Source of the DNA: an uncultured Roseburia sp.
Lineage (GTDB): Bacteria > Bacillota > Clostridia > Lachnospirales > Lachnospiraceae
Direction: 5' to 3'
Assembly: GCA_947088675.1 (NCBI GenBank)
Contig: CAMUHN010000017.1
Location: forward strand, 1 to 50,154
DNA length: 50,154 nt
Position numbers and translations under genes: made by a program. Within the stretch, counting starts at the first letter, position 1; the number at the start of each line of letters is the position of its first letter. The notes under the pieces were generated by a model. That model saw only the letters and a list, made by a program, of their open reading frames with translations. It did no database searches and had not been told where the DNA came from. This document shows positions 45,116 to 50,154 of the stretch, piece by piece.

Positions 45116-46386
45116 AGTGAGTCACCTGCCTTAATTATTACTTCGCCGCTTTTTAAGCAGCCGTCCGGGTAATCCGCTGTCTCGGTAACACCCGCAATCG
45201 CTGTATTTTTGCCGACGGACACGCCCTCCGGAATGACAGAATCCTCCCCGATTGTCACAAGGCCAAACGAATAAATTTCCGCGTTCAACCGGTTTGGAGC
45301 TTCCTCACCTGTTCCCAGCGTAACGCTGCTGCCAATCTGACAGTTCCTTGCAATAATTGATTTATTGATTGTGACATGATCTTCAATCTTAGTGTTTTTC
45401 ATAATGATAGAATCGCGCACTACCGTACCGTTTCCGATCACAACGCCGGACCCGATGACGGAATTGTAAACCTGTCCATAAATTTCCGAACCTTCTCCGA
45501 TGATGCTTCGCTCCACGACAGAGTCGGACGAAAGATACTGCGGTGCAATAATATCGCTTTTTGTATATATCTTCCAGTATTCCTCATAAAGGTTAAATAC
45601 CGGAATCAGATCTATCAGCTCCATATTCGCCTCCCAGTAAGAACCGAGAGTGCCGACATCTTTCCAGTACCCGTTATATTCGTAGGCATACAGATTCTGT
45701 CCCTTATCATGGCAATATGGTATGATATGTTTTCCAAAGTCACAGCCGCTTTGATCTTTCATTGCACAGAGCGCTTCCTTTAAAACACTCCAGTTAAATA
45801 TATAGATCCCCATAGAGGCAAGATTGCTTCTGGGATGTTCCGGTTTCTCTTCAAACTCCTGTATCTTCCGATCTTTGTCTGCGATCACAATGCCAAACCT
45901 GCTCGCTTCCTCCAACGGAACCGGCATTGCGGCAATCGTTACATCCGCATGTTTTTCCTTGTGGAAATCCAGCATAACCTCATAATCCATCTTATAGATA
46001 TGGTCGCCTGATAAAATCAGAACATATTCGGGATTATAATTTTCAATATAGGTTATATTCTGATAGATCGCGTTCGCCGTGCCTGTATACCACTCACTGT
46101 TATCGCTCTTTTCATATGGCGGCAGTACCGTAACGCCTCCGCTGTTCCTGTCCAAATCCCATGGGATGCCGATCCCTATATGGGAATTGAGCCGAAGCGG
46201 CTGATATTGTGTCAGGACACCTACCGTATCAATCCCTGAATTAATACAATTGCTAAGAGGAAAATCGATAATACTGTATTTCCCGCCGAATGCAACCGCC
46301 GGCTTTGCAACTTTTGCAGTAAGAACTCCAAGACGGCTGCCCTGCCCGCCTGCCAGCAGCATTGCAATCATTTCTTTTTGAACCAT
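45112..46386 (-). CDS. glgC: Glucose-1-phosphate adenylyltransferase, catalytic subunit
   Basis: A 424-residue enzyme that turns glucose 1-phosphate and ATP into ADP-glucose. It has the intact catalytic loop [20 protein letters not shown], the substrate site [18 protein letters not shown], and the C-terminal beta-helix ([16 protein letters not shown]). I set the start at ATG 46384-46386, six bases after AGAGGTG; GTG 46395 and ATG 46392 lie within or too near that site. The promoter is at 46431-46459. It is divergent from murC with about 320 bases between the two starts. Confidence 0.94.
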
Positions 46387-46430
46387 TTCCATCACCTCTT
46401 ATCGTTTTCAATCTGTGTTTTTTCATATTT

Positions 46431-46459
46431 ATTATATCATATTATTCCACCTTGTACAG
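46431..46459 (-). promoter_or_regulatory. Promoter of glgCD
   Basis: On the minus strand CTGTAC (46454-46459), 17 bases, TATAAT (46431-46436). The -10 is perfect and the -35 weak; it lies 45 bases before the glgC start. Confidence 0.55.
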
Positions 46460-46649
46460 CACATTTCATAAAAATCTTGTTTGATTTGTTCTATTTTCAG
46501 CAATATAGACAATATTTTTACCAAAATGTATCCATATTGACAACATGCCCCCTTTTTCCTGTCCACAACTGTGCATCTCCCCCTTTGTTTCGTGCAGGGT
46601 TGTCGAAAATATTTTTTGAAAAACAATATGCAAAAGAACAGAATCATTG

Positions 46650-46676
46650 TATAATAACAAAGGGCCGGCTGGCCCG
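46650..46676 (+). promoter_or_regulatory. -10 box and leader hairpin of murC
   Basis: TATAAT (46650-46655), with no clear -35 at the right distance, is followed by the palindrome GGGCCGGCTGGCCC (46662-46675). This hairpin would sit at the very 5' end of the murC transcript. The murC start is 35 bases on. Between 46460 and 46649 I see nothing else firm. Confidence 0.45.
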
Positions 46677-46710
46677 CACTACAATATCAGAAAGGAATCT
46701 TTCCCACATC

Positions 46711-48090
46711 ATGTATAAAATTAACTTCAACCATCCGATCCATATCCACTTTATCGGCATCGGCGGAATCAGCATGAGTGGCCTTGCCGAAATCTTACTG
46801 GCGGAACATTTTAAAATTTCCGGTTCCGACTCAAACAAAACCAGACTGACAGAACATTTAGAGAAAATCGGCGCCACTGTCTATTTTGGCCATGATGCCT
46901 CGCATATTACAGAAGAGATTGATCTTATCGTCTATACTGCCGCTATCCATGAAGATAACCCGGAATTGATTCAGGCAGCGGCACTTTCCATTCCAATGAT
47001 CAGCCGCGCTGAACTGCTGGGACAGATTATGGATAATTACAATACTTCCGTCGCCGTTTCCGGCACACACGGAAAGACAACGACGACCTCCATGATTACA
47101 CAGATCCTGCTCGCCGCAGACTGTGATCCGACGATCACGGTAGGAGGTATGTTAAAAGCATTAAACGGCAATTTAAGAGTCGGAAAGTCCGATCTGTTTG
47201 TCTCAGAAGCATGCGAATATACCAACAGTTTTCTTCATTTTTATCCAAAATACAGTATCATTTTGAATATTGAAGCAGAACATCTTGATTTCTTTGCCGA
47301 TCTGGATCAGATACGCGAATCGTTTCGACAATTTGCCTGTAACACAAAAGATGACGGAATCGTTTTTGTAAACGGTGCAATCACGGATTATCGCAAACTG
47401 TTACAGGGCATAAAATCCGAAATTATTACATTCGGCCTGTCAGACGACTGCGATTTCCATCCTGCTGATATCACATTTGATACAAAAGCATGCGCATCCT
47501 TTCGCGCAATGGAGCGAAACGAACCGCTTTGTGAAATAAAACTGAATGTCCCCGGAATGCATAACGTCGCAAATGCGCTTGCCGCGATCGCGCTTGCACG
47601 AAGTTTAAAGATTTCAGTCCCGGACATTCAAAAGGGCCTCTTCTCTTTTGGCGGCGCTGACAGACGCTTTCAGTACAAAGGAGAGAAAGACGGCGTTATG
47701 GTGATCGACGACTATGCGCACCATCCGACCGAAATAGAAGCAACACTTACAGCGGCAAAGAAATTTCCGCATAAACGCCTTGTGCTTGTTTTTCAGCCTC
47801 ATACCTATTCCCGCACAAAAGCATTTCTGTCGGATTTTGCCCGCGTGCTCTCACAGGCGGATCTGATTGTACTCGCGGATATTTATGCCGCACGCGAAAA
47901 GAATACATATGGCATCCACTCACGCGATCTTTTGACTAAGTTGGAGGAGTCGGGAAAGGAATGCATGTATTTTCCGTCCTTTGAAGAAATAGAAAAATAT
48001 TTGGAAAAAAATTGTATGCACGGAGATTTGTTGATAACTATGGGCGCCGGGGATATTGTAAATATTGGGGAACACTTTCTCGAACACTGA
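46711..48090 (+). CDS. murC: UDP-N-acetylmuramate--L-alanine ligase
   Basis: A 459-residue cytosolic Mur ligase that adds L-Ala to UDP-MurNAc. It shows the Rossmann start HFIGIGGISMSGLAEILL, the ATP loop AVSGTHGKTTTTSMI, AEHLDFF and the C-terminal DDYAHHPTEIEATL motif. I use ATG 46711, which begins the family's usual N-terminus; AAAGG lies 15 bases before it, an unusually long gap, and the reading upstream to 46378 is not coding. It is divergent from glgC and followed by the DnaA-box region. Confidence 0.95.
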   Translation: MYKINFNHPIHIHFIGIGGISMSGLAEILLAEHFKISGSDSNKTRLTEHLEKIGATVYFGHDASHITEEIDLIVYTAAIHEDNPELIQAAALSIPMISRAELLGQIMDNYNTSVAVSGTHGKTTTTSMITQILLAADCDPTITVGGMLKALNGNLRVGKSDLFVSEACEYTNSFLHFYPKYSIILNIEAEHLDFFADLDQIRESFRQFACNTKDDGIVFVNGAITDYRKLLQGIKSEIITFGLSDDCDFHPADITFDTKACASFRAMERNEPLCEIKLNVPGMHNVANALAAIALARSLKISVPDIQKGLFSFGGADRRFQYKGEKDGVMVIDDYAHHPTEIEATLTAAKKFPHKRLVLVFQPHTYSRTKAFLSDFARVLSQADLIVLADIYAAREKNTYGIHSRDLLTKLEESGKECMYFPSFEEIEKYLEKNCMHGDLLITMGAGDIVNIGEHFLEH

Positions 48091-48091
48091 C

Positions 48092-48196
48092 TTACCCACA
48101 TTATCCACATTCAACCGGATTGTACTTTCAACTCCGGAATGTGGATTTTTTTCCCTGTATTTACAGTCGCAAATGAATTTATCCACATTATCCACA
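48092..48196. promoter_or_regulatory. Cluster of DnaA-box sequences upstream of dnaD-dnaC
   Basis: Perfect TTATCCACA boxes lie at 48101-48109, 48179-48187 and 48188-48196. TTACCCACA (one mismatch) lies at 48092-48100, and a weaker inverted copy TGTGGATTT at 48140-48148. The four strong ones form two head-to-tail pairs with no gap. This matches the known binding consensus of the replication initiator DnaA. Its place 36 bases ahead of the dnaD-dnaC promoter suggests either control of primosome genes by DnaA, a DnaA-titration site, or an origin element. Confidence 0.8.
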
Positions 48197-48232
48197 TTTT
48201 ACGGACACCCGACGTTGTCAAAAAAGTTCCTC

Positions 48233-48261
48233 TTCTCAATTTGAGTATCGTATGCTATAAT
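48233..48261 (+). promoter_or_regulatory. Promoter of dnaD-dnaC
   Basis: TTCTCA (48233-48238), 17 bases, TATAAT (48256-48261), 50 bases before the dnaD start. The -35 is fair, the -10 perfect. Confidence 0.55.
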
Positions 48262-48310
48262 TTCTGCGAAAAGAAACACATTGGTTTTCAGGGGAGGACA
48301 CAGGGGAGTT

Positions 48311-49462
48311 ATGGCTAAAATCACATTACACAGCGACAATATAGATTCGGCCACAAGTGTATCAAATCTGTTTATTGACGAATATATGGCAGACGCAAAC
48401 GGGGAATTTGTAAAGATCTATCTGTATCTGCTCCGCTTATTAAACCGGATCGATACGACATTTTCCATCTCTTCCATTGCGGACAAGTTTAATCACACGG
48501 AAAAAGATGTGCAGCGCGCCTTAAATTATTGGGAAAGAATGCATCTGCTGCGTATGGAATACGATGAATCTGAGAATCTGACAGGCATCTGTATGCTGAA
48601 TTTTACAAAGGATATTCAACCGCAGGGATTTACCATAACAGTTCCCTCCGAAACGCCGCAGGGACTTTCCGGAGGAATCCCGCCCAAAGCATGCCCGCCC
48701 AATGGACCGGCAAAAATGCTGACGGATGCACGGACAGAGTATTCCTCAGATCCTGATGTCTTTTTGGAGAAAGATCCCGTAGTGAAGCGAAAAGAGTACA
48801 GTGCGGACGATATTTCCAACTTCCGCCAGGAAGACTGTGTAGCGGAACTTATCTTTATCACAGAGCGATACCTTGGGCGCACGTTAAATCCGACTGACAT
48901 CAATACGATTCTCTATCTGTACGACGGGATTAAATTCTCTGCAGACCTGATTGAATATCTGATTGAATATTGCGTCTCAAAAGGGCACACCAGCATTCGC
49001 TATATCGAAAAGACAGGACTTGCATGGGCAAAAGACAATATCCACACCGTAGAGGAGGCAAAACGCTCCGCCGGCATACATAACCAGACTGCAGCCATTG
49101 TTCAGAAAGCGTTTGGCATCAAGGGACGCAGCCTTGTTCCAACCGAAACGGATTTTATCCGCAAATGGAAAAATACCTGGGGATTTTCCAACGAACTGAT
49201 TCAAAATGCATGCGGCCGCACCATAGCCGCAACGCATCAGCCGAGTTTCGAATATACGGACCGTATTCTGTCTGACTGGTATCGACACAAAGTAAAGAAC
49301 CAGGACGATATCGCAAAACTTGACCATGCCTACCAGAACAGAAAAAAACCGGCTGTTTCTGCAGCGCCGATCATTGCCAAAAACCGATTTAACAATTTTA
49401 AACAGCGCACTTACGACTACGACCAGCTTGAAAAAATGCTGCTGACTACCGATGCGCGCTAA
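48311..49462 (+). CDS. DnaD-domain primosome protein
   Basis: A 383-residue protein that links DnaA or restart proteins to helicase loading. The start is ATG 48311 (MAKITLHSDNI), just after a GGGGAG. The N-terminal winged-helix (FVKIYLYLLRLL to YWERMHLLRM) resembles DnaD/DnaB domain 1; the C-terminal domain 2 runs from EDCVAELIFITERYLGRTLN through IEYLIEYCVSKGHTSIRYIE and ends in KTGLAWAKDNI, the YxxxIAxxW-like motif of DnaD. A Pro/Gly-rich linker separates them. It overlaps no other gene and precedes dnaC by 18 bases. Confidence 0.9.
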   Translation: MAKITLHSDNIDSATSVSNLFIDEYMADANGEFVKIYLYLLRLLNRIDTTFSISSIADKFNHTEKDVQRALNYWERMHLLRMEYDESENLTGICMLNFTKDIQPQGFTITVPSETPQGLSGGIPPKACPPNGPAKMLTDARTEYSSDPDVFLEKDPVVKRKEYSADDISNFRQEDCVAELIFITERYLGRTLNPTDINTILYLYDGIKFSADLIEYLIEYCVSKGHTSIRYIEKTGLAWAKDNIHTVEEAKRSAGIHNQTAAIVQKAFGIKGRSLVPTETDFIRKWKNTWGFSNELIQNACGRTIAATHQPSFEYTDRILSDWYRHKVKNQDDIAKLDHAYQNRKKPAVSAAPIIAKNRFNNFKQRTYDYDQLEKMLLTTDAR

Positions 49463-49480
49463 CCGGATTGAGGAGAAATC

Positions 49481-50154
49481 ATGCCTTTGACAAACATGCA
49501 ATATGATGCAATCATGCGTGAGTATGATGCCCGCCAGGCAAGAAACAGCCGTGACCGGCAGAATCGTCTGCATGAGGCTTACCGCAAGATACCTGCCTTA
49601 AAAGAAATTGACGATGCCATTGCCTCCTGCTCCGTCTCGCAGGCAAAAAAGCTGTTTGACGGCGATCAGAATGCGCTGCCGCGATTCAGGCAACAACTAA
49701 CCGACTACCGAGGGAAAAAAAAAGCACTGCTCGCAGCCGCCGGTCTGACCGACGATTACTTTACGCCGTCTTACACCTGCGCCGACTGCAAAGACACCGG
49801 ATTTATCAACGGTTCCCGCTGTCATTGCTTTACACAGGCTGCCATTGATCTGGTTTATACGCAGTCAAACATTCGCGATGTACTGGAGAACGAAAATTTC
49901 AGTTCCTTTTCGTTCGAATACTATTCCGACCAAAAAATAAACCCGGCTACCGGACAATCTTCTCTCGCAACTGCGAAAGAAGCTGTTGCAAAATGTCTTG
50001 ATTTCATCAAAAATTTTGATTCGGATTTTGTAAACCTTTACCTTTACGGAGACACCGGAACCGGCAAGACTTATCTGTCGAACTGCATTGCCAAAGAACT
50101 TTTAGACAGCGGACATTCCGTTATCTACTTTACAGCGTTTCAATTATTTGATAT
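49481..50154 (+). CDS. DnaC/DnaI-type helicase loader, 3' end outside window
   Basis: The first 224 codons of an ATPase that loads the replicative helicase. The start is ATG 49481 with an AGGAG site. An N-terminal helical region is followed by a zinc-binding-like CADCKDTGFINGSRCHCF (four Cys, about 106-123) and the AAA+ Walker A YGDTGTGKTYLSN near 190. It continues past 50154, where Walker B, sensor 1 and the Arg finger should lie. With the upstream DnaD-type gene it makes a clostridial primosome operon. Confidence 0.92.
   Translation, partial: MPLTNMQYDAIMREYDARQARNSRDRQNRLHEAYRKIPALKEIDDAIASCSVSQAKKLFDGDQNALPRFRQQLTDYRGKKKALLAAAGLTDDYFTPSYTCADCKDTGFINGSRCHCFTQAAIDLVYTQSNIRDVLENENFSSFSFEYYSDQKINPATGQSSLATAKEAVAKCLDFIKNFDSDFVNLYLYGDTGTGKTYLSNCIAKELLDSGHSVIYFTAFQLFD

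Follow-up and report, generated by a model that had tools for sequence, protein, structure and literature searches.

For most bacteria, to our knowledge, the question of how DnaA, the initiator, keeps its activity in step with helicase-loader supply is still open. The locus studied here raises this question directly: tandem DnaA boxes lie between murC and the genes of a helicase-loader operon, dnaD-dnaC, and they could regulate that operon, titrate DnaA, or mark a second origin. The window, that is, the whole stretch of 50,154 nucleotides analyzed, makes up one entire contig (G000:C17) of a 3.17-Mb draft genome assembled into 122 contigs. Among the named relatives found, the closest was an uncultured Roseburia sp., whose DnaD is 90% identical. 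From comparisons of sequences across relatives, the locus is probably a DnaA-dependent control region of dnaD-dnaC, a reading to which we give a probability of roughly 0.78.

Table 1. Position of the genes and sequence elements at the murC-dnaD-dnaC locus, in window coordinates.
Feature	Coordinates	Strand	Evidence or remark
murC (UDP-N-acetylmuramate--L-alanine ligase)	46711..48090	+	TIGR01082, E 8e-150; gene upstream of the boxes
DnaA-box-like TTATCAACA, murC coding end	48029..48037	-	Box scan and conservation
Pair 1: TTACCCACA + TTATCCACA, gapless	48092..48109	+	1 bp past the murC stop; boxes at 48092-48100 (one mismatch) and 48101-48109
murC terminator hairpin and T-run	48103..48152	+	5' arm, box 2 of pair 1; 3' arm, TGTGGAT at 48140-48146
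Pair 2 (array 2): TTATCCACA + TTATCCACA, gapless	48179..48196	+	Boxes at 48179-48187 and 48188-48196
Extended -10 of the dnaD promoter, TATGCTATAAT	48251..48261	+	59 bp downstream of pair 2
dnaD/dnaB-like replication initiation gene	48311..49462	+	PF07261, E 3e-40; TIGR01446, E 1e-20; two stretches each
dnaC-like helicase-loader gene	49481..50154	+	NF005304, E 9e-73, exceeding the family cutoff; truncated by the contig end

The murC start was taken as the ATG giving a 459-aa reading. The murC stop codon occupies positions 48088-48090, and the dnaD ATG is found at 48311. Two PF07261 stretches are the layout of Bacillus subtilis DnaB, not DnaD, according to the part of the source available (PMC5295017). 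Therefore, dnaD/dnaB-like is the safer name for the gene called dnaD below. The dnaD promoter has TATAAT at 48256-48261 and a weak -35-like sequence, TTCTCA, at 48233. When the region from 46000 to 50154 was scanned against Rfam, no match was obtained at the gathering threshold.

The original prediction had described three perfect boxes and one near-perfect box forming two gapless head-to-tail pairs, and this arrangement was confirmed at the same coordinates, with all four boxes on the plus strand and 69 bp between the pairs. The array had also been placed 36 bases before the likely dnaD promoter; we indeed found 36 bp from the end of pair 2 to TTCTCA and 59 bp to TATAAT. A chance origin of the boxes was ruled out by shuffles and by genome-wide counts of pairs. 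The region from 48091 to 48310 contains three perfect boxes, and more than one was obtained in 0 of 20,000 dinucleotide shuffles. Across the whole draft genome (3.17 Mb), 41 perfect single boxes were counted. When up to one mismatch was allowed, three gapless pairs were obtained, including the two at this locus, and a reversed-pattern control gave none. The boxes thus lie close upstream of the dnaD promoter beyond chance, as expected of a DnaA-regulated promoter, and they also form a cluster outside oriC, as expected of a titration-type cluster. Over the whole window, 30 boxes with at most one mismatch were counted versus 11.5 expected from shuffles; most of them lie outside the cluster, and the excess across the window may reflect coding bias.

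Absence of the boxes upstream of dnaD-dnaC in relatives had been named beforehand as one result that would refute the original prediction. A total of 130 records were collected (30 from the source genome and its congeners, 20 from other families of the order, and 80 named). Upstream murC was recognized in 117 of them; 8 had none by the motif used, including L038, in which murC and the boxes are visible by eye, and 5 had too little DNA. After the removal of 3 loci because of gap size and 17 duplicates, 97 distinct regions were left, and without 9 from other families, 88 Lachnospiraceae loci. Conservation held: pair 1 (up to three mismatches, 0 to 5 bp past the murC stop) was present in all 88 loci and perfect in 56, and pair 2 (up to three mismatches) was present in 82 and perfect in 27, with six loci lacking a good pair 2. 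The TG of the extended -10 was found in 88/88 loci. A strict pattern combining the murC-end box with pair 1 was detected in at least 53 of 150 Lachnospiraceae genera (one genome each), a lower bound because the window itself fails this pattern. Of the 20 other families of the order, 10 had a gapless pair with at most one mismatch per box upstream of dnaD; the other 10 had no gapless pair at dnaD, two of them with less than 710 bp of upstream DNA. Class-wide, a perfect pair occurred in 45 of 291 genomes, and among 30 such pair loci fetched, only 3 were at murC-dnaD, all in Lachnospiraceae and the window included. Beyond the order, the pair at dnaD is not general.

We then compared the distance between array 2 and the dnaD promoter among loci. 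The best match within a broad interval was taken as the -10, ignoring the positions of the boxes. Spacing was counted from the last box; counting from the best pair had mixed two-box with three-box arrays. In the first set, 84 of the 97 regions were within the mismatch limits, and 83 were kept once L050 (from another family, 153 bp) was set aside; one of the 83, L044, belongs to another family. The second set comprised 53 loci from other genera, from which 5 duplicates and 7 loci with a poor pair 2 or -10 were removed to give 41. In 123 of these 124 loci, the end of the last box was 39, 49-50, 58-60, 68-71, 78-80, or 90 bp from the -10, the distance at the window locus being 59 bp. The sole exception, L229 (157 bp), was counted as such and excluded from the periodograms. 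The best period was 10.05 bp, with an R of 0.945, versus an R of 0.78 at 9 bp; for the other genera alone, R was 0.925 at 10.0 bp and 0.65 at 9 bp. Lanes predicted from the first set contained 39 of the 41 other-genus loci, and these lanes cover 28% of the integers. When 82 loci were placed on a DnaD tree, 8 lane changes were counted, and 7 independent pairs differ by 9, 10, 9, 9, 10, 10, and 10 bp (scan P value of 0.0002). As a control, the distance from the -10 to the start codon (38 of the 41 other-genus loci) had no period (P values of 0.47 and 0.93). Five of the 7 dropped other-genus loci had no separate pair 2 and carried pair 1 only, which ends 67, 67, 46, 91, and 101 bp upstream of the -10; the first three of them have further boxes between pair 1 and the -10, outside the lanes. 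Another observation concerns L236, also one of the 7, which has a candidate other gene in the dnaD position. The geometry of the boxes is therefore fixed relative to the promoter (123/124 and 39/41), as expected of a DnaA-regulated promoter. Together with the conservation of the two pairs (88/88 and 82/88), this register supports the proposal, part of the original prediction, that DnaA may act as a regulator of helicase-loader genes.

The best-surviving alternative is that the boxes are a cluster that titrates DnaA, holding it away from oriC as in B. subtilis, with the position at dnaD being secondary. Four to five clustered boxes outside oriC agree with this proposal, which had also been put forward in the original prediction, and the available portions of two sources describe six B. 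subtilis clusters whose joint deletion leads to early initiation (PMC5295017, PMC13220808). However, a titrating cluster would not have to keep register with a promoter, whereas the last box keeps 10-bp lanes to the -10, and the target gene is constant across the loci. The clustering outside oriC thus stands, whereas the register is left unexplained. We consider it unlikely that titration is what the locus is for, and it may be an added effect that does not account for the promoter register.

A less probable alternative is that the 10-bp lanes are a ladder of tandem 9-bp boxes joined to a linker kept for some other reason, so that DnaA would bind without any helical constraint. Among the 124 arrays, 72 have two boxes, 50 have three, and 2 have four. 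Moreover, the length of a single box, 9 bp, is the exact difference in three of the 7 independent pairs, and therefore the first set alone cannot separate a box ladder from helical turns. Counting from the best pair, which gives 9 changes and 8 independent pairs on the tree, also yields a period of 9.8 bp. On the other hand, the period measured from the last box fits 10.05 bp better than 9 bp, and in the 72 two-box arrays it is 10.3 bp. The other genera, with lanes at 39, 49, 59, 69, 79, and 90 bp, separate the two explanations better. We regard the ladder as an improbable source of the lanes.

Pair 1 overlaps a second element, the murC terminator. The hairpin has a folding energy of -19.4 kcal/mol, with z scores of -4.0 and -4.8 for two cuts, and a simple terminator scan of the locus did not list it. 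A fifth, weak inverted box had been predicted between the pairs. Such a copy, TGTGGATTT, is present at 48140-48148 with two mismatches, but it is the 3' arm of the terminator, the 5' arm being box 2, and we rejected it as an independent site. The 3' arm is kept in 86 of the 88 Lachnospiraceae loci. Within the stem, the box part is nearly fixed (ATCCACA in 82 of 86 loci), whereas the pairs beyond the box covary: of the 86 loci, 85, 82, 78, and 74 keep the pairing at stem positions 1, 2, 3, and 4, respectively, and fewer do so deeper in the stem (67, 55, 29, and 50 for positions 5, 6, 7, and 8). With a fixed box part and covarying pairs beyond it, the same DNA seems to have been under selection in two roles, DnaA box and hairpin. 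It is accordingly very improbable that pair 1 is nothing but the murC terminator and resembles DnaA boxes incidentally: box 2 does form a conserved arm of the hairpin, yet box 1, which is not part of the stem, is conserved as well, and the box part of the stem is fixed whereas the pairs beyond it covary. The box-like sequence inside murC is also conserved, with TGTTGATAA exact in 86 of 88 Lachnospiraceae loci. Its codons ATA (82/82) and TTG (81/82) are the most fixed among 69 codons for conserved residues, and a nearby GGA codon outside the box is almost equally fixed (80/82).

The original prediction had further considered a second origin-like site, where DnaA would open the DNA and load the helicase, and perfect tandem boxes adjoining helicase-loader genes would suit such a site. 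The only DnaA match in the draft genome is on another contig (C25), where dnaA adjoins dnaN, recF, gyrB, and gyrA according to gene order and read translations; this DnaA has the usual ATPase and helix-turn-helix domains. In a complete relative, G034, sampled at 20 positions of 20 kb, the GC skew was positive between 0 and 1.62 Mb and negative between 1.80 and 3.42 Mb, flipping at the dnaA end (DnaA match at 331-822) and near 1.7 Mb. The dnaD gene of G034 is located at 2.87 Mb, in the middle of an arm, and the sign of the skew did not change on either side of it. The dnaA gene is far from dnaD in G034 and G016 and 46 kb away in G056. The locus is no main origin, because the skew of G034 flips at dnaA instead, and a second origin, rejected on the GC skew of this one complete relative and the position of dnaA elsewhere, is scarcely credible. 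As a separate observation, dnaD is seemingly transcribed toward the dnaA end, head-on to replication, in the complete genomes G034, G016, and G056, an orientation deduced from coordinates, with the skew checked for G034 alone.

The distance between the two arrays may also run in regular steps, although the evidence is weaker than for the register with the promoter, above all under strict controls. From pair 1 to the start of array 2, the values cluster at 86-88, 97-101, 109-112, 118-120, 133-134, 140-147, 150-158, 163-169, and 176 bp, with one at 224 bp. The period in other genera was 11.2 bp (R of 0.69 and P value of 0.0003). The P value of a period of about 11 bp was 0.023 once similar combinations were merged, 0.032 for 18 independent tree pairs (0.05 in an earlier analysis), and 0.12 when only distinct values were used. 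DNA loops in cells show periods near 11 bp. The steps of about 11 bp between the arrays suggest that they may be joined by such a loop.

From these patterns we infer DnaA occupancy, a loop, and a sign of regulation at dnaD-dnaC. On the boxes of array 2, bound DnaA would always lie on the same side of the helix with respect to RNA polymerase positioned at the extended -10, and the register with the -10 argues for a contact between DnaA and RNA polymerase. Pair 1, which overlaps the murC terminator, would also be bound by DnaA, as perhaps would the box-like sequence inside murC. DnaA molecules on the two arrays would probably meet through a small DNA loop of about 8 to 16 helical turns. The amount or nucleotide state of DnaA could then set the transcription of proteins that DnaA must recruit next. 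Activation is slightly favored over repression, because the extended -10 is nearly invariant and the -35 is poor; contact repression and repression by looping are the possible alternatives. For the more specific proposal that DnaA is a loop-forming regulator of the loader operon in much of the Lachnospiraceae, with an array embedded in the murC terminator and coding end bridged over about 8 to 16 turns to an array facing RNA polymerase in a fixed register, we judge the odds to be a little better than even.

Several known systems resemble this locus in part. In Escherichia coli, the available text reports paired boxes in 15 of 16 DnaA-bound regions (PMC11317965). Its double-box promoters (nrdA, polA, purH, and others) likewise have same-orientation pairs upstream of genes tied to replication, but these pairs are 2 to 3 bp apart, compared with 0 bp at the Lachnospiraceae locus. 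None of the 16 regions listed in that text is a helicase-loader gene, and it describes neither a second array nor an overlap with a terminator (PMC11317965). DnaA is also a transcription factor in B. subtilis, from a related branch of the phylum, where sda is activated; however, dnaB-dnaI and dnaD are absent from the regulon list in the portion available, unlike the candidate target in Lachnospiraceae. At incC of the B. subtilis origin, according to the sections at hand, a distal DnaA box works with helical phasing and as if through a loop, so that there, too, two groups of DnaA boxes act together (PMC6669920). That system, however, concerns the origin and strand opening, whereas the Lachnospiraceae boxes are at a promoter distant from the origin. 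Within the DnaA regulon of Caulobacter, boxes are predicted upstream of dnaB, also a gene of the helicase step, but this concerns the helicase rather than its loaders in a distant lineage, and the accessible part of the source describes no phasing (PMC8203912). The B. subtilis DnaA-box clusters lie outside oriC as well; the role reported for them is titration, and the corresponding extracts do not describe a promoter register (PMC5295017, PMC13220808).

It is thus already known, as far as the texts available go, that DnaA acts as a transcription factor and forms loops and that its Caulobacter regulon includes a helicase gene (PMC8203912 for the last). We found no account of DnaA boxes located at Lachnospiraceae dnaD-dnaC in the open-licence literature, and the available excerpts of PMC2500167, PMC11019786, and PMC13326638 contained nothing on DnaA control of loader genes. 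As far as the open-licence literature shows, the novelty lies in the operon targeted, in the merging of a gapless double array with the murC terminator, and in the helical phasing across species. If our main reading is true, how many loaders are made for DnaA to recruit depends on initiator activity. Evolution seemingly ran the phasing experiment itself, with boxes shifting relative to the promoter by whole helical turns only in more than 100 genomes. A direct link from DnaA to a loader operon thereby becomes testable in common gut bacteria, and the locus offers a natural system for studying DnaA-RNA polymerase contact and the formation of DnaA loops.

Other recurring elements were seen at this locus and elsewhere. 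A palindrome-like sequence, AAACCCTTGATTTTACTGGGTTT, lies between pair 2 and the -10 in relatives and is inverted in L019 compared with L020. It may be the site of a second regulator, but its 15-base core had 36 exact matches across 23 of 60 genomes, of which 8 were at dnaD, and none in the genome of the window. Between the terminator and array 2, TTT[AC]CATA is present in 38 of the 88 Lachnospiraceae loci (for example, L007-L010), at 61-63 bp from the start of pair 1 in 33 of the 38; in 15, another copy follows at 128-133 bp. The motif was not found in the window. TTT[AC]CATA may be the site of another factor. A second recurring gapless box pair, TTAT[ACGT]CACATTATCCACA in most cases, was located at L004:5170-5187 (G000:C35:14169-14186, minus strand), ahead of a gene pair (WecG/TagA-like and YitT family) in the source genome. 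It also occurs near similar open reading frames in congeners (L138-L144 and L146), and in L145 and L147, which belong to other families, a pair is upstream of an open reading frame for a candidate ribosome hibernation factor. Downstream of the pair at this second, WecG/TagA-YitT locus, a sequence similar to TTT[AC]CATA, TTTACATAG, was observed.
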